Below the pieces are notes generated by a model, which saw nothing but the letters and a program-made list of their open reading frames with translations, was not told the DNA's origin and did no database searches. From assembly GCF_041821025.1 (NCBI RefSeq), contig NZ_JBGUAY010000004.1, positions 310,001 through 374,000 on the forward strand: a DNA stretch of 64,000 nt, given 5' to 3'. Positions within the stretch are counted from its first letter, which is position 1, and every line of letters starts with the position of its first letter. The position numbers were made by a program, and so were the translations under genes. This stretch comes from Egicoccus sp. AB-alg6-2 (GTDB lineage Bacteria > Actinomycetota > Nitriliruptoria > Nitriliruptorales > Nitriliruptoraceae). Positions 49,616 through 60,200 of this stretch are shown here, one piece after another.

Positions 49616-50044
49616 CAGCTGTGGCGGTAGCAGCGCCACGTCGCTGCCCGCGAGCCGGTCACCACGTTCGCCGGCGGCGAGCAGGCCACGGACGGCCGAT
49701 CCCCCGACGACCACGACCTCGGCGACGAACGCCAGGAGCACACCGAGTCCGCTGAGTTCTGCGAGCAGGCGGACCCCGAGTCGGTCGGTCGCGAGACCGA
49801 TGACCAACCAGGCGAGCACGACGAGCGCGCCGATGACCACGAGCTGCCGCCGCAGCCGGCGGGCCGTCCGCCCCCAGTCCACGATGGGAGCCGCCACCTC
49901 GGGTGCCGCCGCCGCCTCGGGTGCGGCCGCCGCCTCGGGTGCGGCCGCCACGCCCGGCACGCCGGTGGCGATCTGGGATGCAGCCGCGGGCACGTCGGTC
50001 GACGGCGGTGCGGGATCGGGTGCGGTCACGAGGGCCTCGGGCAC
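49601..50044 (-). CDS. hypothetical membrane protein with AAAPE repeats
   Basis: 147 aa, not recognised. N-terminal Ala/Pro/Glu low-complexity segment with three AAAPE-type repeats (about 33-52, encoded by 18-nt direct repeats), then two hydrophobic stretches (about 67-85 and 92-118) and a basic tail ending in RRRR. GTG 50044 is the longest start; GTG 50029 is an alternative. It faces the thioredoxin-like gene tail to tail. The reading frame has normal codon use, so it is probably real. Confidence 0.6.
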   Translation of the reverse strand: MPEALVTAPDPAPPSTDVPAAASQIATGVPGVAAAPEAAAAPEAAAAPEVAAPIVDWGRTARRLRRQLVVIGALVVLAWLVIGLATDRLGVRLLAELSGLGVLLAFVAEVVVVGGSAVRGLLAAGERGDRLAGSDVALLPPQLRRRR

Positions 50045-50046
50045 GG

Positions 50047-50079
50047 GATGCGGCGGCCGAGGGTATCGGCCGCCGCATC
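50047..50079. terminator. perfect 14-bp hairpin after the PfpI gene
   Basis: GATGCGGCGGCCGA and TCGGCCGCCGCATC are perfect inverted repeats around GGGTA, in the 55-nt gap between the PfpI gene and the next leftward gene. On the transcribed strand no U-tract follows. The most stable simple hairpin noticed in the window. Confidence 0.65.
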
Positions 50080-50099
50080 GTCGTAACGGTCAGTGGGCC

Positions 50100-50660
50100 T
50101 CAGGCGAGCTGCTTCTCGATCAGGGCGATGGTCTCGCGGTCGAACGCCTCGAGGTCGTCGGGCTTGCGGCTGGTGATCAGCGGTCCGGCGCCGTTGTCGT
50201 CGACCACGACCTCCTGGTCGACCCAGGTTCCGCCGGCGTTGCGAATGTCGGTCTGCAGGCTCGGCCACGACGTGAGGGTGCGGCCCTCGACGCAGCCCGC
50301 CTCGACCAGCGACCATGGCGCGTGGCAGATCGCGGCGACGGGCTTGCCGGAGGCGACGAAGTCGCGCACGAACGCGACCGCGCCCTCGTGCATCCGCAGC
50401 TGGTCGGGGTTGGCCACGCCGCCGGGCAGCACCAATGCGTCGAAGTCGTCGACCGAGACGTTGTCGACCGCTTCGTCCACCTCGAAGGTGTCTGCCTTGT
50501 CGAGGTGGTCGAAGCCCTGCACCTCCCCCGGCTCGGTCGCGAGCAGGATCGGCACGCCACCGGCCTGCTTGATGTCGGCCCAGGGCTGGGTGAGTTCGAT
50601 CTGTTCGACGCCTTCGGTGGCGACGAGGAACGCGACGCGTGCGCCGTCGATGCTGGCCAT
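50100..50660 (-). CDS. PfpI/DJ-1 family protein (type 1 glutamine amidotransferase fold)
   Basis: 186-aa cytoplasmic protein of the PfpI protease/deglycase family. The nucleophile elbow is AAICHAPW, with C112 and H113; E18 in TEGVEQIE matches the family's acidic partner. Proposed roles are stress chaperone, protease or deglycase; the sequence cannot separate them. ATG 50660 has AAGGAG 6 nt upstream, one of the best ribosome sites in the window, suggesting strong translation. Confidence 0.93.
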   Translation of the reverse strand: MASIDGARVAFLVATEGVEQIELTQPWADIKQAGGVPILLATEPGEVQGFDHLDKADTFEVDEAVDNVSVDDFDALVLPGGVANPDQLRMHEGAVAFVRDFVASGKPVAAICHAPWSLVEAGCVEGRTLTSWPSLQTDIRNAGGTWVDQEVVVDDNGAGPLITSRKPDDLEAFDRETIALIEKQLA

Positions 50661-50863
50661 GTGGGACTCCTTGCGTGGGACGGGTCAGAGCGGGATCCCC
50701 ATGGTCGGGGCCGCCGCAGCGGCGCGTACTCCAACGGCTGCACGAACGGTCCCGACAGGCGGGCCACCCCGCGACCGGCAGGGGTCGACCACGCCCGGGT
50801 CACCACCGGCGGCGGTCCCGCAGCGGTGCGTGCCGCACCGGTGAGATCCCCGCGCCGGCGACG

Positions 50864-51214
50864 TCACAACGCCGGGTCGCCCAGGTCGAGCCGCAGGGTG
50901 GCCAGCACCCGCGTGATCTCGCCGTGCAGCGCGGCGACGTCCAGCGGCAGGCGCACGTCGTGCTGCGGGTACAGCTCGGTGGCGGAGGTGTCGGTGGTGC
51001 TGACCTGCCAGCCGCGGGCGAGCAGATAGTCCCCGAGCTGGAACGCCCACGTCAGCACGACGTGGTCCTCGTAGTCGTGCAGCATGAAGGTCAGGTAGCG
51101 GTTGAACGGCAGGGTCCACATCCGGCCGCCCCGACGCGACACGCCCTGCGCCCGGAAGCCCAGCGCCTCGAGTTCGTCGTCGAAGGTCTCGGCCGTCGCC
51201 CCGTCGCCGTTCAC
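50864..51214 (-). CDS. hypothetical protein
   Basis: 116 aa, not recognised. A compact alpha/beta protein with an aromatic, partly hydrophobic centre (MWTLPFNRYLTFMLHDYEDH, about 32-51, and VLTWAFQLGDYLLARGW) and no membrane anchor or signal. GTG 51214 is favoured by GGGAG 7 nt upstream; a longer frame begins at 51244. Divergent from the coiled-coil lipoprotein gene. The 203-nt gap to pfpI holds no clear signal beyond the pfpI ribosome site. Confidence 0.65.
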   Translation of the reverse strand: MNGDGATAETFDDELEALGFRAQGVSRRGGRMWTLPFNRYLTFMLHDYEDHVVLTWAFQLGDYLLARGWQVSTTDTSATELYPQHDVRLPLDVAALHGEITRVLATLRLDLGDPAL

Positions 51215-51288
51215 CGGCCAGCTCCCTGGTCGCCTGCGCGGCACACGCTACTCGGATCCGCCGGCCCGACTCCGTACGCTGTCGCGCC

Positions 51289-51753
51289 ATGTACGCCCTG
51301 CGATCCTCCGTCCTCGCCCTGGCCCTCGTGCTGGGAGCCGCCGCGTGCTCGAGCCCGGACGACGACGAGCAGCAGGACGCGGTCGTCGAGGAACTGCGTG
51401 CCGAACTGGCGGCCCGGGCGGACGCCGAGGGCGCGCTGGCGCAACGCGTCGAGGAACTCGAGGCCCAGCTCGAGCGACTGAGCAGCGACCGGTCCACCAG
51501 CCAACGACTCGGCGAGGTGGACGAGCAGCTCACGGCACTGAGCGAGAGCATCACCAGCCTGGGCGAGCGGGTGGACACCGAAGCCCAGGAACGCGTCAGC
51601 GTCGGCGAGGAGGCGGCGAACGCGGCTGCCGACCTGCGCAACAGCCTCGCCGACATGCGCGGGCGCATCGACCAGCTGCAGGGCGAGACCGACGAGCTGC
51701 GCACGCTGTACCAGACCCTGCGCGAACGGGTCGACCGCATGCAGCAGGGCTGA
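51289..51753 (+). CDS. coiled-coil lipoprotein
   Basis: 154-aa exported protein: a short signal peptide with lipobox GAAAC (C20), then an almost continuous Glu/Gln/Arg-rich coiled coil (about 27-150). No catalytic domain. It could be a structural or adaptor protein at the outer face of the membrane. TACGCT (51275-51280) eight nt above the ATG suggests a leaderless transcript. It is followed 35 nt later by pknB, which has its own -10. Confidence 0.75.
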   Translation: MYALRSSVLALALVLGAAACSSPDDDEQQDAVVEELRAELAARADAEGALAQRVEELEAQLERLSSDRSTSQRLGEVDEQLTALSESITSLGERVDTEAQERVSVGEEAANAAADLRNSLADMRGRIDQLQGETDELRTLYQTLRERVDRMQQG

Positions 51754-51776
51754 CGGGTCGAGCGGTCACGCTGCCC

Positions 51777-51782
51777 TACCAT
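51777..51782 (+). promoter_or_regulatory. -10 of pknB (leaderless)
   Basis: TACCAT six nt before the GTG at 51789. No ribosome site is present, so the mRNA is probably leaderless. No clear -35. Confidence 0.45.
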
Positions 51783-51788
51783 CGAGCC

Positions 51789-53747
51789 GTGCCGAACTCC
51801 CCCGCCTCGCGTGACGCGACGCCCACCCGCGTCGGTGGGCGCTACGCGCTGCGCGGTGAGATCGGTCGCGGGGGCATGGCGACGGTCCACCGGGCGGTCG
51901 ACGAGGTGCTGGAGCGCGAGGTCGCCGTCAAGCTGCTGCATGCGCACCTGGCCACCGATCCGGCCTTCCTCGACCGCTTCCGCCGCGAGGCCCGCGCCGC
52001 GGCGGCGCTGGCACACCCCAACGTGGTGGCCGTGCACGACTGGGGCGAGACCGACGAGGGCGCGTACCTGGTCCTGCAGCTCATCGAGGGCCCGTCGCTG
52101 CGCGCGGTGCTGCGCCGGCACGGCCGGCTGACGCCACCGCAGGCACTCGGGGTGCTCGCGCCGGCGGCGGCGGGGCTCGGATCGGCGCACCGGGCGGGCC
52201 TCGTCCACCGCGACGTCAAGCCCGAGAACCTGTTGCTGGGCGCCGACGGGCAGGTCCACGTGACCGACTTCGGGCTCGCCCGTGCCGCGGCGAGCGCCAC
52301 CTCGACGTTCGGCGCGGACGTGCTGGTCGGCTCGCCCCACTACCTCTCCCCCGAGGCGGTCCGCGGCCAGCCGCTGGATCCCCGCGCGGACGTGTACGCG
52401 TTGGGCGTCACGTTGTTCGAGTGCCTGACCGGCCGTCCGCCGCACGAGGGCGAGTCCCCGTTCGCGACGGCGGTCGCCCACACCTCACGTCGCGTCCCGC
52501 CCCCGTCGTCGCTCGTCGACGACATCCCGGCGGAGCTCGACGAACTGGTGCTGGCCGCCACCTCGCACGACCCCGACGAGCGGCCCGAGGACGGCTCGGT
52601 GTTCGCGCGCGAGCTGTCGCTGGCGGTGCCGGCGGGAATCGCCCCGCTGGACCTGCACGACCTGGCCGGCGACACGGTGCTGACCGCACGCCCCCAGCCG
52701 TCCGGCGGCACGATGACCTTCGAACCTGCCGATCACACCACGCTGGTGGGCCGGGGTGGACCTCCGCCTCCGCCCGGCGCCACCGCCGTCGAGGAGGACC
52801 TCGCCGGGGAAACGCTCGACGACGACGTGGTCGAGCGCCGCCGGGGACGGGGCTGGCTGGTGGCACTGCTCGTCCTCGGGCTCCTGGCGGCGTCCGCGGC
52901 CGCCGGCTACCTGGTGTGGGACCGGGTACTGGCGCCGGTGACGAGCATTCCCAGCGTGGTCGAGGCACCGCAGGACGACGCGGTGGCCGAGCTCGAGACG
53001 GCCGGGTTCGTGGTGGCCCTCGCCGACGAGCGCCCGCACGACCTCGACGTTCCGGCCGGGCACGTCCTCGCCCAGGAACCGCTGGGCACCGCGCGGCGCG
53101 GCGCGCGCGTCCTGCTGACGCTGTCCGCCGGCCCGCGACAGGTGACCGTGCCCGACGTGGTCGGCGACGCCGGCGACGTCGCCGCACAACGGCTGCGGGA
53201 CGCCGGACTGACGCCGACCGTCATCGAACGCCATGACGACGACGTCGCCGAGGGCCTGGTGATCAGCACCGAACCCGGTGCCGCCGAGGTGGTCGACGAG
53301 TCCAGCCCGGTCGACGTGGTCGTCAGCCTTGGGCCGCAACCGATCGACATCCCCGACGTCGTCGGACGTACCGAGGCCGACGCCGAAGCCACGCTGGTGG
53401 GGGCCGGACTGCGCATGCGCGTGGTCGACCGGCCCTACGACGGCGCGGCGGCGGGGACCGTCATCCGCCAGAACCCCAATGCGCAGAGCGGTCCCGTGCT
53501 GCCCGGCGAGACCATCGACGTGGCCGTGTCGCGCGGCCCCCAACCGGTCGAGGTCCCGCAGGTACGCAACATGCTCGTCGAGGAGGCGGTCGCGACGCTG
53601 CAGGAACTCGGGTTGGAGGTCGCCGTCGAGCGGCGCGGCGGCTTCGGCGCGTTCCTGCGCCCCAACCGCGTGTTCGAACAGGACCCGGGCCCGGGCGCCA
53701 CGCTGCTGCCCGGACAGACCGTCACGGTGTACGCCTACGAGGAGTGA
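51789..53747 (+). CDS. pknB: PASTA-domain serine/threonine protein kinase
   Basis: Membrane receptor kinase of 652 aa, sensing cell-wall fragments or lipid II in relatives. The cytoplasmic kinase domain (about 18-275) has the glycine loop GRGGMA (26-31), ATP lysine K48, catalytic H140-R141-D142 and D160-F161-G162. A juxtamembrane linker is rich in Pro and Gly (TTLVGRGGPPPPPG). One transmembrane helix (about 355-377) is followed by four extracellular PASTA repeats (about 382-652). All kinase residues are intact, so activity is expected. The usual neighbours rodA, pbpA and pstP are absent here. Confidence 0.95.
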   Translation: MPNSPASRDATPTRVGGRYALRGEIGRGGMATVHRAVDEVLEREVAVKLLHAHLATDPAFLDRFRREARAAAALAHPNVVAVHDWGETDEGAYLVLQLIEGPSLRAVLRRHGRLTPPQALGVLAPAAAGLGSAHRAGLVHRDVKPENLLLGADGQVHVTDFGLARAAASATSTFGADVLVGSPHYLSPEAVRGQPLDPRADVYALGVTLFECLTGRPPHEGESPFATAVAHTSRRVPPPSSLVDDIPAELDELVLAATSHDPDERPEDGSVFARELSLAVPAGIAPLDLHDLAGDTVLTARPQPSGGTMTFEPADHTTLVGRGGPPPPPGATAVEEDLAGETLDDDVVERRRGRGWLVALLVLGLLAASAAAGYLVWDRVLAPVTSIPSVVEAPQDDAVAELETAGFVVALADERPHDLDVPAGHVLAQEPLGTARRGARVLLTLSAGPRQVTVPDVVGDAGDVAAQRLRDAGLTPTVIERHDDDVAEGLVISTEPGAAEVVDESSPVDVVVSLGPQPIDIPDVVGRTEADAEATLVGAGLRMRVVDRPYDGAAAGTVIRQNPNAQSGPVLPGETIDVAVSRGPQPVEVPQVRNMLVEEAVATLQELGLEVAVERRGGFGAFLRPNRVFEQDPGPGATLLPGQTVTVYAYEE

Positions 53748-53763
53748 CGCGACAGGCGTGACG

Positions 53764-54804
53764 TCAGTTGGTGGCGGGCCGCGCCTGGGCCCGCTGCCGG
53801 GCGAGCTCGACGTCGTCCCCCTCGGCGACCCACCCCTGCAGTTCCAGGTCGGAGACGGCGAGGTCGGGATGGGTGTCACCGTTGAAGGTGTCGAGGATCT
53901 CGATGCTGACACCGGTGGTCAGTACCGGTTCGGTCAACTCGATGGCCTGGGGGGTCAGCCCCTCGTCGAGCAGGTTGATCAGCAGGACGATGCCGCCGTC
54001 CATCGTGACCTGCGCCCGCTGGATCCGTGCATTCGCGGCATAGGTGTCCGCGTCGCGGTGGTCGCCGTTGCGGAGCACGAGACGGTCGACCCAGGCCGGT
54101 TGCTCCAGCAGCAGTTCGATGCGCTCGCCGACGCCGTGCTCGACCTCGTCGACCGACCCGTCGGAGTTCCAGGCCGTCGCGGCGTCGTCGTCGACCATCT
54201 GCGACGCCTCGTAGGACTGCCCGCCCTGGGACGGCAGCGTCGTGCGGGTGGCGATCTCCGCGACGGGCAAGCGGGTCGGCGCGTCGTCGTAGGCGGCCAC
54301 GTCGAAGTCGGCGCCGGGCAGCGCGAGTTCCCCGCTCCCGAACGGTCCGATGCCGGCGAAGGCGAGGCCGGCGATCGTCAGGCCGAGCACGACCAGCACA
54401 CCGAAGGCGGCCCACAGGCGCGAACGGGGTTCATCGTCGTGGCGGGGACCGTGGAGGTCCCCGCCGGCGCGCCCGTTCGCCCGTGGGGGCACGCTGCCGG
54501 TGTCGAGGTCGGCGCCGCAGCGACCGCACAGTTCGCGGTGCGGGCTGTTGGGACCGCCGCAGTTTGGACAGTTCCGCAGCGCCAGCGGTCCGGACGGCGG
54601 CGACACGTCCGCGCCGATCCGGGTGACCCGGTCGAGCTCGCCGGTCGTCTCGCTGTCCTCCGGATGCGCGCCACGCAACTGCGCGCGGACGGGGGCGACC
54701 AGCGCGATGCCGCAGGCACGGCAGAACCGCGCACCCGGCGTCGAGGGAGTTCCGCAGTCGGGGCACGTCGAGGTGCCCGTGCTGCTGTCGCCGGCGCTGG
54801 TCAC
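53764..54804 (-). CDS. double zinc-ribbon membrane protein with discoidin-like C-terminal domain
   Basis: 346-aa protein. Two cytoplasmic zinc ribbons (C14, C17, C28, C31 and C79, C82, C93, C96), one transmembrane helix (about 131-152) and an extracellular beta-rich domain (about 187-325) whose SQMVDDDAATAWNSDG motif matches discoidin-type (NADase-associated) glycan-binding modules. The layout suggests a sensor that reads surface glycan outside and contacts a protein or nucleic-acid partner inside. GTG 54804 has GGGAG upstream; the frame extends to 54900 but without a conserved look. It is convergent with pknB, and the two share no operon. Confidence 0.82.
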   Translation of the reverse strand: MTSAGDSSTGTSTCPDCGTPSTPGARFCRACGIALVAPVRAQLRGAHPEDSETTGELDRVTRIGADVSPPSGPLALRNCPNCGGPNSPHRELCGRCGADLDTGSVPPRANGRAGGDLHGPRHDDEPRSRLWAAFGVLVVLGLTIAGLAFAGIGPFGSGELALPGADFDVAAYDDAPTRLPVAEIATRTTLPSQGGQSYEASQMVDDDAATAWNSDGSVDEVEHGVGERIELLLEQPAWVDRLVLRNGDHRDADTYAANARIQRAQVTMDGGIVLLINLLDEGLTPQAIELTEPVLTTGVSIEILDTFNGDTHPDLAVSDLELQGWVAEGDDVELARQRAQARPATN

Positions 54805-54990
54805 ACGTGCTCCCGCGAAGAGGTCGGGGTGGCTGACGTCGGTCCGACTCCTGCGGGCCGCGGGCGCAGCGTAGGCGTCCGCCCGAGACCTTCGGGACAC
54901 GTCGGTGCGCGACAGGCGTTCGTCGGCCGGTCACGGCGCGCGCTGCCGCGGCCACGGCGGGACGCGTCATGGCCCCTGCCGGCGCACTGC

Positions 54991-54996
54991 TACGCT
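54991..54996 (+). promoter_or_regulatory. -10 of the aroF leader
   Basis: TACGCT, with the leader-peptide ATG seven nt downstream, so the transcript is predicted to begin at or next to the start codon (leaderless). Confidence 0.5.
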
Positions 54997-55003
54997 GCCC
55001 GCC

Positions 55004-55087
55004 ATGTTCACCGTCACGTATGTCGCCTGGTTTTCGGGCCGGTTCTTTACCGGGCCCGGGACCGAGCGCGCTGCGGACACGATCTAG
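55004..55087 (+). CDS. aromatic-rich leader peptide of aroF attenuator
   Basis: A 27-codon open frame with no ribosome site, seven nt behind a -10. Six of its first 15 residues are aromatic: F2, Y6, W9, F10, F14, F15. All three aromatic amino acids, the end products of the pathway the downstream gene starts, are represented. The codons F14-F15 lie in the loop of a hairpin (GGGCCGG 55036-55042 with CCGGGCCC 55050-55057), as expected if ribosome pausing is to disrupt it. A regulatory, not enzymatic, peptide. An aroF leader with Phe codons is known from Corynebacterium; this one is of the same kind. Confidence 0.85.
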   Translation: MFTVTYVAWFSGRFFTGPGTERAADTI

Positions 55088-55112
55088 CACCACCACCGCA
55101 CCGACGACGCGA

Positions 55113-55147
55113 AGCCCCGGGGTCCAGCCTCCGGGGCTCAGACGTTT
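55113..55147 (+). terminator. attenuator terminator before aroF
   Basis: AGCCCCGG (55113-55120) pairs with CCGGGGCT (55131-55138), followed five nt later by TTTT (55144-55147): a Rho-independent terminator between the leader peptide and aroF. The left arm's CCCGGG (55116-55121) is also complementary to CCCGGG 55055-55060, inside the leader, so pairing of those segments would abolish the terminator. Ribosome stalling on aromatic codons could cause this. Confidence 0.75.
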
Positions 55148-55177
55148 TCGGGGGCGGACGACGCGGGGAGCGGGTCA

Positions 55178-56266
55178 ATGACCAGAGAGGACACGACGAT
55201 GGTCGTGGTCATGCGCTCAGGCGCCACCGATACGGATGTCGACAAGGTCGTCAAGGCGATCGGCGAAGTCGGCGGCGACGCCTTCGTGTCGCGCGGCAAG
55301 CACCAGACGATCATCGGGCTCGTCGGCGACCTGACGCAGTTCACCGAGCTGCCCCTGCACGCCTTCCCCGGCGTCGAGGACGTCATCCGGGTCAGCAAGC
55401 CCTACAAGCTCGTCAGCGTCGAGACCCATCCACGGCCGTCGACCGTCTGGGTCGGTGACACGCCGATCGGCCGCGACACGGTCACGCTCATCGCGGGCCC
55501 GTGTGCCGTCGAGAGCGAGGAGCAGACCGAAGCGGGCTGCAAGATGGCCAAGGAGGCCGGCGCCTCGATCCTGCGCGGTGGCGCCTACAAGCCACGCACC
55601 TCGCCCTACGCGTTCCAGGGGCTCGGGGAAGCCGGGCTCGACATCCTGCACGGCGTCGCACGCGACCTCGGTCTGCCCTTCGTCACCGAGGTGGTCACCC
55701 CCGCCGACGTCGAGACCGTCGCCGCGAAGGCGGACATGCTGCAGGTCGGTGCCCGCAACATGCAGAACTTCCAGCTGCTCAAGGAAGTGGGGATGGCCGG
55801 CAAGCCGGTCCTGCTCAAACGCGGACTGACCGCCACCATCGACGAATGGATCATGGCGGCGGAGTACATCGCGCACACCGGCAACCTGCAGGTGGTGCTG
55901 TGCGAGCGCGGCATCCGCACCTACGAGCCCATGACCCGCAACACGCTCGACGTCTCCGCCGTGCCGGTGGCGCAGTCGCTGACGCACCTGCCGGTCATCG
56001 TCGACCCGTCGCACTCGGGCGGCAAGCGCGACCTGGTCCTCCCGCTGACCCGCGCCGCCATCGCCGCGGGCGCCGACGGCGTCATCGTCGACGTCCACCC
56101 ACGCCCCGAGACCGCGCTGTGCGACGGCCCCCAGGCCCTGGTCCGCGACGACCTGCTGCCCCTGCGCGAGTCGGTGGCGCGCTTCGCGGGCGCCATGGGC
56201 CGCGAGGTCGCCGCCCCGACCGTCGACCACCGCGCCGGTGCGTGGGGTCGTTCGGCCTCCGCCTGA
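55178..56266 (+). CDS. aroF: 3-deoxy-7-phosphoheptulonate synthase (DAHP synthase, type I-beta)
   Basis: First enzyme of the shikimate pathway, joining phosphoenolpyruvate and erythrose 4-phosphate. It is 362 aa from ATG 55178, with GGGGAG 7 nt upstream. A ferredoxin-like regulatory domain (about 8-75, [17 protein letters not shown]) precedes the TIM-barrel, as in the Thermotoga type, and is expected to bind Phe or Tyr for feedback. Catalytic motifs are GPCAVES (C109 binds metal), [11 protein letters not shown] (138-148) and HSGGKR. It is expressed behind the leader peptide and attenuator, so it is controlled both by attenuation and by allostery. Confidence 0.96.
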
Positions 56267-56281
56267 TCCGGCTTGCCGCGT

Positions 56282-56300
56282 CCCGACCGTCGCGGTCGGG
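56282..56300. terminator. convergent-end hairpin after aroF
   Basis: CCCGACCG (56282-56289) pairs with CGGTCGGG (56293-56300) around TCG. It lies between aroF and the convergent epimerase-like gene; no U-tract. Likely bidirectional. Confidence 0.5.
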
Positions 56301-56311
56301 GCGCGACGCCG

Positions 56312-57217
56312 TCAGGAGGGCGAGGACAACGCCGCCCGCACGGCGGCACGGAGCGGCGTGGTCAACAGGTGGCCGTACCAGTCCTGCGCCAGTCCGTCCC
56401 GCACGATCGTGTCCTCCTGCACCGACTGGAGCAGACCGAGCGTGAGCATCGGGTCGACGCCGGCACGGGCGGCGGCCGCCAGGGCCGTCGCCTCGGGTGG
56501 CAGGTAGGGCGCCCGCACCCGCCGCACGGCCTGCCGGCCGAGTTCGTCGCGCACCACCTCGACGAGGTCGGCGTAGGTGAGCACGTCCGGGCCGCCGATC
56601 TCGAGCACCTCTCCCTCCGTCCGCGGGTCGTGCAGCGACGCGGCCAGGACGGCCAGGAGGTCGTCGAGGGCGACCGGTTGCACCAGCGAACGGTTCCAGG
56701 CCGCGTCGAGAGCGAAGGGTGCCGTGGCCGCGGCGACCAGCAGGTCGAACGACGCGCTGCCCGCGCCGACGACGATGCCGGCACGCAGTTCGGTGGCCGG
56801 GACCGGGCCGGCGCGCAACTCCTCACCGACCTGGTGGCGGGCATAGAGATGGTCGGAGACGAACGCGAGGCGGTCCTCGTCCACCAGGCCGCCGAGATAG
56901 ACGATGCGCCGCATGCCGGCGGCCTCGGCGCCGGTGGCGAAGGCGGCCGCCGTCGCCCGCTCGCGCTCGACGAGGCCGCGCAGACGCCCGGCCATGCCGT
57001 GCACGAGGAAGAAGGCGGCATCACAGCCGTCGCCGGCGCGCCACACCGCCTGGCGGTCCTCGGCGCGTCCCTGCACCACCTCGACCCGGTCGCGCCACGG
57101 CGCGGTGAGCCGCGCCGGGTCGCGGACGAGACAGCGGACGCGGTGCCCGTCGGCGAGCAGAGCCGGGACCAGCGCCGCACCGACGAAGCCGGTCGCACCT
57201 GTCACGAGCAGTTCCAT
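56312..57217 (-). CDS. NAD(P)H-binding epimerase/NmrA-like protein
   Basis: 301-aa Rossmann-fold protein of the extended SDR/NmrA group. The N-terminal [21 protein letters not shown] binds NAD(P), and a VYLGGLVDE stretch follows where an SDR has its substrate loop; the YxxxK motif occurs as YARHQ-like sequence and is not clearly intact, so it may be an atypical or non-catalytic member. ATG 57217 follows GAGGAC. It is downstream of the P-type ATPase gene on the same strand with about 57 nt between. Confidence 0.82.
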
Positions 57218-57273
57218 GTCGTGTCCTCGTCGGGCCGGGGCGGCGGGCGGGGAGGCCGGACGCCCCGACGTCG

Positions 57274-60200
57274 TCACGCCGCCCGCTCCACGATGCGCGA
57301 GGCCAGTTGGGAACCGGCGGTGGCGACCGTCGCGGCCGTCGCGGCCTGCGCCCAGCCGAGCGGCCCGAGCGGACGACATCCGAAGAACTGGCTCACGCCC
57401 GGCGTCTGCACGACGGCGGCCAGTCCGGCCGCGGAACCGATGCCCGTCAACAACGTCGTCGGGCGCTTCCAGCCGCCGGCGGCGACGGTCTGCCCCAGCT
57501 GGGTCCCGACCAGGGCCACCAGCCCCACCGTGCTGGCACGACGGCGCGTGCCCGTCAGACGGGCGGCGGTCCAGGCGGCACTGGCCCCGAGCGCCGTGGC
57601 GGTGCCGCGGATGGCGACGTCGCGCGCCAGCGCCGAGCCGAGCGACGCCTCGGGACCTTCGCGCAGAAGGGTCTCGGTGGAGACGTCCTCGGGCGGACGG
57701 ACGGCGATGGCGACGGCCGGGGCCAGGTCGGTGAACAGGTTCACCAGCAGGAACTGCCGCGGATCCAGCGGGGCCGACCGGCTGAACAGGGATGCGATGG
57801 AGGTGAATCCGATCTCGCCGAGGTTGCCGCCGACGAGGACCGCGAGCGCCTCGCGGACCGAGCCCCACATCGCCCGGCCCTCGGCGATCGCATCGATGAG
57901 GGTCTCGATCCGGTCGTCGGTGACGACGATGTCGGCCGCGTCGCGGGCCGCAGGTGAGGAACGCTCGCCCAGTGCGACGCCGACTTCGGCGGTACGGATC
58001 GCGGCGGCGTCGTTGGCGCCGTCGCCGGTCATCGCCACGACGTGACCACGCTCCTGCAGGGCCGTGACCACCCGCAGCTTGTGCGCCGGCGTGACCCGCG
58101 CGACGACCGCGGTGGCCTCGAGGGCGTCGGCGAGGGCGTCGTCGTCGAGCGTGTCGAGGTCCGCGCCGGTCAGCGCCTCGCTGCCGGGCAGTCCGAGCTC
58201 GGCGGCGATGTGCAACGCGGTCTCGGGGTGGTCCCCCGTCACCATGATGGTCCGCACGCCCGCCGCGGCGATGCCGCGCACCGCCGCGGCCGCCGTGGCG
58301 CGGACCGGGTCCGCCAACGCGATCAGGCCGACCAGGCACAGCCGCTCGAGGCGGTCCTCCTCGAGTTCGGGGCGCGACGACGCCGCGCGCTGGGCCACGG
58401 CGAGCAGCCGGTGTCCGCGTCCGGCGAGCTCGTCGACCTGCGCCAGCACCTCCGCGCGGGCCTCGGCGTCGAGCGCGACCTCCTCGTCGTCGCGGCGCCA
58501 GGAGGTGCAGACGTCGAGGACGACCTCGGGGGCGCCCTTGACGACGAGGTGGTGGCGCTGCGCGCTCCGACCGAGGACGGCGTGGATGCCGCGGCTGGAG
58601 TCGAACGGCAGGTCGGCCACGACCTCCCACCCCGGCAGCCCGTCCCCGGCGGCGACCTCGAGGTCGTCGGCCGCGGCGTGCAGCGCTTCGTCGGTCTCGT
58701 CGAGTCCGTTGCCGTTGCCGTCGCCGTCGGCGGGGCCGCTGGCGCGCAGGCTGACGGCGAGCAGGTCGCGGAGCAGCGCGTCGTCGGTGTCGCGGCGGTG
58801 CACGCTGCGTCGCCCGTCGGACACACCGGTGAACCGCACCCGGCCCTCGGTGAGGGTCCCGGTCTTGTCGACGCAGAGCACGTCGACCCGGCCGAGCGCC
58901 TCGACGGTGCGCGGGTTGCGGACGACGGCGTTGCTGGCGGCCAGTCGGCGGGCGCCGGCCAACTGCCCGGCCGTCGCGACGAACGGCAGACCCTCGGGGA
59001 CCGACGCGATGGCCAGCCCGACCGCGGTGCTGGCGACGTCGCGCATCGGCCAGCGGCGCAGCAGCCCGACACCCGCCGTACCGGCGGCGGTCGCGAGTGC
59101 GGCCGGCAGCAGGCGCCTGGTGACCTCCTCGAGCCGCAGCTCGACACCGGTCGGCGGCGGTGGTCCGGCCAGCGCCAGGCTGCGGGCCACCTCGGTGTGC
59201 TCGCCGGTGGCCACCACGACGGCGCGCACCGAGCCGTTGGAGACGACGGTGTCCTCGTACAGCATGCAGGTGCGGTCGCCGAGCGCCTGCTCGGTCGAGG
59301 GGTCGGCGGTCTTGGCGACCGGCAGCGACTCACCCGTCAGACTCGACTCGTCCACCTCGCAGCCGTCGGTGGCCAGCACACGCGCATCGGCGGGAACGGC
59401 GTCGCCCGCCGCGAGCACGATGACGTCGCCGCGGACCAACCGGTCCTCGCGCACGCGACGTTCACGGCCGTCCCGGACGACGGTGACCTCCTCGACGTCG
59501 CGGTCCAGCAGGCCGCGGACGGTGCGGTCGGCCCGGAGCCGCTGCACCCCACCGACGAGGCTGTTCACGCCGATCAGCCCCAGCACCAGGCCGGCGTCGG
59601 TCATGGAACCGATCGCGGCCGACAGCCCGGCACCGACCCCCAGGATGGGGTTGAGCGGGTTGGCCAGTTCGGCGAGGAACGGCTCGCCGGGTGACACCTC
59701 GCTCCCGGCGGCGCCCGTCACGGTCCGGCGCTGTCGGGCCTCCTGCTCGCTGAGCCCCTGGTCGGCGTCGGTCCCGAGCAGTTCGGTGGCCCGATCGGCG
59801 GTGATGGCGTGCCAGCGAACCGGGTCCGGGACGTAGGGTCGCGGCCGGTGGGCGAGCCGTACGGCCGCCCAGGTGCCCGACGCCAGCGCCGCGCCGGCGG
59901 CACCGTTGACCATCGCCAGGCCACGGCTGCCGGCGGCGGCACGCGGACCCGTGCCCGCGACCAGCGCACCCAGCGCGGAACCGGCCACGGCGAAACGCGC
60001 CGCTTGGGCGGAGACCTCCCGGGCGGCCGTGGTGGCCTCGATGATCGTGGCGGCGTCGGCCAGCTCGCGGCCGAGGATCAGGTCCGCGCCCCACGACGGG
60101 CGACCGGTCGGGGCCACGACCCCGAGCCCGACGTCCGCGGCCGCCAGTCCGCGGTGACCCTGACGGCCGACCACCATGACCACCGCCCCGTCGGCCTGCA

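Follow-up and report, generated by a model that had tools for sequence, protein, structure and literature searches.

The principle of attenuation has long been known. The trpL and pheL leaders of E. coli sense one amino acid each, start from a Shine–Dalgarno sequence and are followed by strong U-tracts. In Corynebacterium glutamicum the AroR leader attenuates aroF (PMC4046766; Neshat 2014 as cited in PMC11802643); AroR acts by ribosome stalling, expression rises under Phe limitation and its single Phe-Tyr-Phe run responds to Phe, not to Tyr (PMC11802643). Attenuation has also been proposed for the uORFC-13-1 motif before Acholeplasma aroF (PMC8632094), which combines an upstream ORF, with at least one Phe codon, and a terminator. 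The attenuators listed for Streptomyces lividans sense Trp, Leu, Ile/Val and others and do not include an aroF leader (PMC8079986). A 2005 survey of Actinobacteria (PMC1262725) reported structures for the operons of Trp, Cys and Leu as well as ileS T-boxes, and nothing for the remaining amino acid pathways. A search of open papers yielded no Nitriliruptor attenuator paper, and an aroF leader in Nitriliruptorales is not described in the literature searched.

The locus described here lies in a stretch of 64 000 nt (the window) from a Nitriliruptoraceae genome (Actinomycetota), the nearest named relatives of which are likewise Nitriliruptoraceae. It is read as a classical ribosome-mediated transcription attenuator of aroF that would raise the first enzyme of the aromatic pathway under shortage, with a probability of roughly 0.9. 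The following features were re-read in the sequence 54991–55180 and its downstream gene; regions 1 to 4 are numbered as in other attenuators.

54991–54996, forward strand: −10 box TACGCT of the leader promoter (24 of 25 loci have a TAnnnT box 6–10 nt ahead of the leader)
55004–55087, forward strand: leader peptide gene, 27 codons, MFTVTYVAWFSGRFFTGPGTERAADTI, stop TAG (aromatic-rich frame kept in 25 distinct leaders)
55028–55048, forward strand: probable control codons W9 F10 (55028–55033) and F14 F15 (55043–55048), from codon placement and the stall model
55029–55063, forward strand: 1:2 hairpin, arms 55029–55043 and 55049–55063, loop UCUUU with F14 F15 (fold, synonymous-codon null)
55055–55076, forward strand: region 2, 5′ antiterminator strand, beginning with CCCGGG 55055–55060 (duplex prediction, nulls and swap test over 25 loci)
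55099–55122, forward strand: region 3, 3′ antiterminator strand, made up of 14 nt upstream plus the left terminator arm AGCCCCGGGG (55113–55122)
55113–55138, forward strand: terminator-type hairpin 3:4, AGCCCCGGGG/CTCCGGGGCT, arms 55113–55122 and 55129–55138, loop 55123–55128 (25 of 25 leaders)
55139–55150, forward strand: weak U-rich tail with TTTT at 55145–55148 (seven and eight nt past the stem, T in 64% and 56% of loci)
55165–55170, forward strand: GGGGAG, likely Shine–Dalgarno sequence of aroF (from sequence; GGGAG-type motifs precede the gene in most relatives)
55178–56266, forward strand: aroF, the gene under control, encoding a type I DAHP synthase (scores above cut-off for NF006421 and TIGR01361)

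A preliminary description made from the letters alone had placed a leader and a hairpin ahead of aroF, and both the coordinates and the two profile matches bear this out; 90 bp separate the leader ORF from the gene. A profile search of the window genome gave a single match to PF00793 and none to PF01474, and aroF is therefore its only recognisable DAHP synthase. Most genomes in other families of the class carry a PF01474-type DAHP synthase instead.

With trpL and pheL of E. coli the locus shares the four-region logic in which a ribosome held up at the control codons tips the balance from 3:4 to 2:3, whereas the downstream gene, the single sensed amino acid, the Shine–Dalgarno start and the strong U-tract set the E. 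coli leaders apart. It resembles AroR in that a short aromatic leader directly precedes a DAHP synthase gene in an actinobacterial host, and the same stalling logic is proposed; the window leader, from another order of the phylum, has six aromatic codons of three kinds. DAHP synthase attenuation would thus be extended to Nitriliruptorales. The uORFC-13-1 motif belongs to another phylum, has a ribosome binding site and follows a different RNA consensus. The trpL, leuL and ilvL leaders of S. lividans are similar in their leaderless peptides, their TAnnnT promoters and, in some cases, hairpins without a U-tract (PMC8079986).

The 27-codon frame with F2, Y6, W9, F10, F14 and F15 was found at 55004–55087 as first described. 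The TACGCT box sits seven nt before ATG 55004, a spacing that predicts a transcription start on the leader ATG or beside it, i.e. a leaderless mRNA; in Streptomyces lividans an average of 6.3 nt separates the −10 box from the transcription start (PMC8079986). Of the 25 loci of the order, 22 have a TAnnnT box 6–8 nt ahead of the start (chance in shuffled DNA 0.6% per locus) and two more have one at 9–10 nt; in L015, read by eye, TAGGAT lies at 7 nt if an internal ATG (MQTRAPWW...) is the start. A sigma-70 consensus scan of the window locus called no promoter. The leaderless start suggested earlier is supported by this common spacing. The accompanying doubt, that such a start would be unusual for an attenuator, falls away because the attenuator leader peptides of S. 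lividans are mostly leaderless (PMC8079986), and the title of a reference in PMC4046766 describes synthesis of the C. glutamicum ilvBNC leader in the absence of a ribosome binding site. Among Actinobacteria, leader peptides of the leaderless kind are normal.

aroF and its upstream DNA were gathered from the order Nitriliruptorales and duplicates were removed. A short aromatic-rich ORF occupies the same place before aroF in 25 distinct loci, the window included, and these share a layout (aromatic-rich ORF, −10 box at leaderless spacing, stop, hairpin) on diverged sequence; an aromatic-rich frame plus a terminator is what the preliminary description had proposed to look for in related genomes. 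Examples are MPHATYYFWFQGRFFAGPGTERAADRT, MTRATFLWGSAGYRFFFGHPGVAHVS, MRSRNRYGFWFTGFRPRGQLDRR and MRDHYGFFWFGDGFRRPRGRAGRAR. The leaders range in length from 22 to 31, their distance to the gene is about 64–120 nt and, beyond the aromatic cluster, their sequence is hardly conserved except between close relatives. Phe, Tyr and Trp account for 126 of 632 leader codons after the start (19.9%) versus 4.1% in AroF; F is present in 25 leaders, W in 24 and Y in 20, with all three in 19. The aromatic codons cluster 12 to 2 codons ahead of region 2; beyond that region there are hardly any. These 25 diverged natural versions form a good data set for the evolution of an attenuator in which codons and pairings are kept. 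The element occurs in one copy per genome, strong covariance-model matches being confined to aroF; elsewhere in these genomes the model gave weak matches only, of which the best four were inspected and rejected (three gene ends with ordinary hairpins, the fourth inside coding-like sequence). No Trp-rich leader was found before trpE in the same genomes, and Rfam covariance models (E up to 1) matched no leader family at positions 50000–60000.

A GC-rich hairpin follows the stop codon in 25 of 25 loci (placed by hand in L004 and L006), and four of its eight consensus pairs are changed on both sides. The alternative pairings were compared with randomized controls. Summed over the 25 loci, the energy of the 1:2 hairpin is −487 versus −380 ± 14 after synonymous recoding; this hairpin holds F14 F15 in its loop, as had been noted, and would block the antiterminator when the ribosome is not stalled. 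The antiterminator, formed by region 2 with region 3 and its 14 upstream bases, sums to −772 kcal mol−1; synonymous recodings reach −641 ± 18 and upstream-base shuffles −686 ± 12, with 0 of 200 as good in both cases. When leaders and regions 3 were exchanged between loci, the pairing of own partners was equalled in 0 of 20 000 permutations (25 loci) and in 9 of 20 000 (14 representatives); since the loci are related, the null and permutation figures overstate independence, and the exchange among the 14 representatives is the most cautious of these tests. Pairing examples are ACGUCUCG with CGAGACGU in L005 and GCGAGCGC with GCGCUCGC in L008, and in L024 regions 2, 3 and 4 differ jointly from the other loci (CUCCGGGGUC / GACCCCGGAG / CUCCGGGGUC). 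The mutually exclusive structures claimed at the outset therefore hold up against synonymous, shuffled and swapped controls. The pairing first proposed, of CCCGGG 55055–55060 with the left terminator arm, which contains a second CCCGGG at 55116–55121, is retained; its partners were drawn too narrowly, the leader strand starting near codon 17 and ending shortly before the stop, and region 2 pairing also with bases just upstream of the terminator. Because the partner extends beyond CCCGGG, a stall at any of W9, F10 and F14 can release the terminator, F15 being borderline.

For the window locus alone the 2:3 pairing does not exceed that of synonymous recodings, 54 of 200 being as good, so the single sequence proves little; taken together, the 25 loci lie far outside what chance would give. 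That GC-rich intergenic palindromes happen to accompany a random short ORF would agree with the window result; this is hardly credible given that all comparative tests over the 25 loci contradict it and that other upstream regions of the same genomes give no aromatic leader. The synonymous controls also bear on a leader with a constitutive terminator whose small protein acts in trans, like peTrpL, with no attenuation of aroF. The leader frame is conserved and trans-acting leader peptides exist (PMC7298713), but the peptides vary in length and are hardly conserved outside the aromatic cluster, and the RNA pairings beat shuffles that preserve the peptide, which makes such a role very improbable.

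For each of the 25 loci, folding of the nascent RNA as far as region 3 was modelled with the ribosome placed on one codon after another. With the A site on the aromatic cluster, the pairing probability between region 3 and the leader was mostly 0.6–1.0; in nearly all loci it fell below about 0.5 at, or within about three codons past, the final aromatic codon of the cluster (in L023 about five codons later; L031 partly recovers before dropping), and was near zero before the stop in 25 of 25. The values for the window are 0.7 at W9, 0.7 at F10, 0.6 at F14, 0.3 at F15 and zero from codon 17. When the terminator was included at equilibrium, the effect of the stall was clear in about half of the loci and weak in the window, where the terminator stays likely at every stall position (0.68–0.86). 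Equilibrium folding was dropped as the sole test, as the terminator wins at all stall positions in many loci. For the window the switch is seen only when folding stops at region 3, and the mechanism therefore needs kinetic trapping: the 2:3 pairing would have to form before region 4 is made, which is assumed here and is standard for attenuators.

In the proposed mechanism, transcription would start at the leader ATG and a ribosome would translate the leaderless ORF behind RNA polymerase. With ample charged Phe-, Trp- and Tyr-tRNA the ribosome would pass codon 15, cover or pass region 2 and reach the stop, whereupon region 3 would pair with region 4 and transcription would end before aroF. If aromatic aminoacyl-tRNA were short, the ribosome would wait at W9/F10 or F14 and the 1:2 hairpin would not form; region 2 would then pair with region 3, no terminator would arise and aroF would be transcribed. 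Ribosome-mediated attenuation of aroF, the central proposal of the preliminary description, is thus strongly supported by the comparative anatomy (25 loci, nulls and stall model). It is plausible that the leader senses Phe, Tyr and Trp together, all three codons being present in 19 of 25 leaders; one switch could then watch three amino acids where a single DAHP synthase gene exists.

An action on aroF translation instead of transcription, by masking of the Shine–Dalgarno sequence or by reinitiation, was also considered. The leader lies close to the gene, and the GGGAG motif could be hidden by self-complementary repeats rich in GC. This reading is nevertheless improbable: the conserved hairpin includes the Shine–Dalgarno sequence in 0 of 25 loci, the distance from hairpin to gene varies widely, and the starved state would leave region 4 free to mask the motif, which is the wrong direction.

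The tail of the hairpin fits a canonical terminator poorly. No canonical U-tract follows the hairpin in the 25 loci, only a weak U enrichment that peaks seven and eight nt beyond the stem (64% and 56%; background 5%), and a plain terminator scan did not call the window hairpin. The terminator first described stands as to its hairpin at 55113–55138; its TTTT does not adjoin the stem and begins six nt after it. Because the hairpin lacks a proper U-tract, termination there is something we infer, as we do tRNA sensing and the choice of control codons. The poor U-tract also raises the alternative that the leader controls a hairpin-stabilised pause followed by Rho-dependent or otherwise factor-assisted termination; this is a variant of the attenuator with the same leader logic. 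The late U residues, followed by CCGGGG in a form common across loci, are consistent with it, as are the S. lividans trpL2 and thrL hairpins, also without a U-rich stretch (PMC8079986). Similar U-poor GCCCCGG hairpins end ordinary genes of these genomes, however, for instance after a thioredoxin-looking gene, which supports termination at the leader hairpin, short of proof, and the distant aroF leaders L039 and L067 have hairpins with long U-tracts. Factor-assisted release is judged unlikely, though likelier than the other alternatives. A GUU(C/U)CCGGGG-like motif recurs 7–15 nt after the stem, in the window (55145–55155) and in relatives; it is a possible pause or release site.

By eye, leader and AGCCCCGGGG-type hairpin are both absent from seven loci (L007, L018, L019, L029, L032, L107 and L116), all of which still show the upstream TAnnnT box. 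Loss of the frame with the terminator kept, named earlier as an observation that would count against attenuation, was seen in one relative only (L017 of genome G004), where, about 200 nt upstream of aroF, a TACGCT box is directly followed by what seems to be a hairpin and then by tandem repeats; the leader appears to have been deleted. The repeats, of about 40 bp and with promoter-like boxes, lie before the gene. A second DAHP synthase gene (L211–L224) is present in about a third of the order, and an aromatic leader was found in 0 of 14 of the respective upstream regions. In genus g11 all five sampled genomes have no aroF leader and all have the second gene. An explanation of leader loss by the second gene was rejected, the association not being significant (the leader is lacking in 5 of 12 genomes that have a second gene versus 3 of 21 that have none; Fisher p = 0.11).

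Outside the order, 66 aroF loci were scanned for leader-like ORFs; 14 have one with 5 or more aromatics per 10 residues, versus 3 expected from shuffles, and 6 have one with 7 or more, versus 0.05. Examples are MNGYFGFWFFYGGDSPA, MDRKLNATNNFYGYWFYYYFALVCPSRED and MENGRHTETGLFFYYYYYWYFGRVCPQLDRRIF, and several are followed by hairpins with long U-tracts. These sequences suggest that control of aroF by a leader is more widespread than the few described cases, reaching Deltaproteobacteria, Acidobacteria and other Actinobacteria. The wider reading, that a single leaderless peptide, its Phe, Trp and Tyr codons spread over one switch window, integrates the charging of all three tRNAs and makes the sole DAHP synthase respond when any one of these end products is short, and that aroF attenuators of this kind arose or were retained in several phyla, is put forward tentatively, at somewhat less than even odds.

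Strongly aromatic leaders (e.g. FFYYYYYWYF) precede aroF in the deltaproteobacterial loci L067, L082, L091 and L094; they end in a conserved VCP with GTCTGCCCA and are followed by U-tract hairpins, and may represent an uncurated attenuator family. L039–L043 and L046, from MAGs labelled Actinobacteria, Acidobacteria or unclassified, have leaders like MRDYFWFYGTSGSPEADAR followed by clear terminator hairpins. Of thirty other actinobacterial aroF loci 28 were scanned, and two had at least 5 aromatics in ten residues, L180 alone being leader-like. The short ORFs before aroF in L180 and L181 (Actinomycetota) have AGGAG upstream and contain GRCWLYY(Y/R), and are possibly another type of leader.
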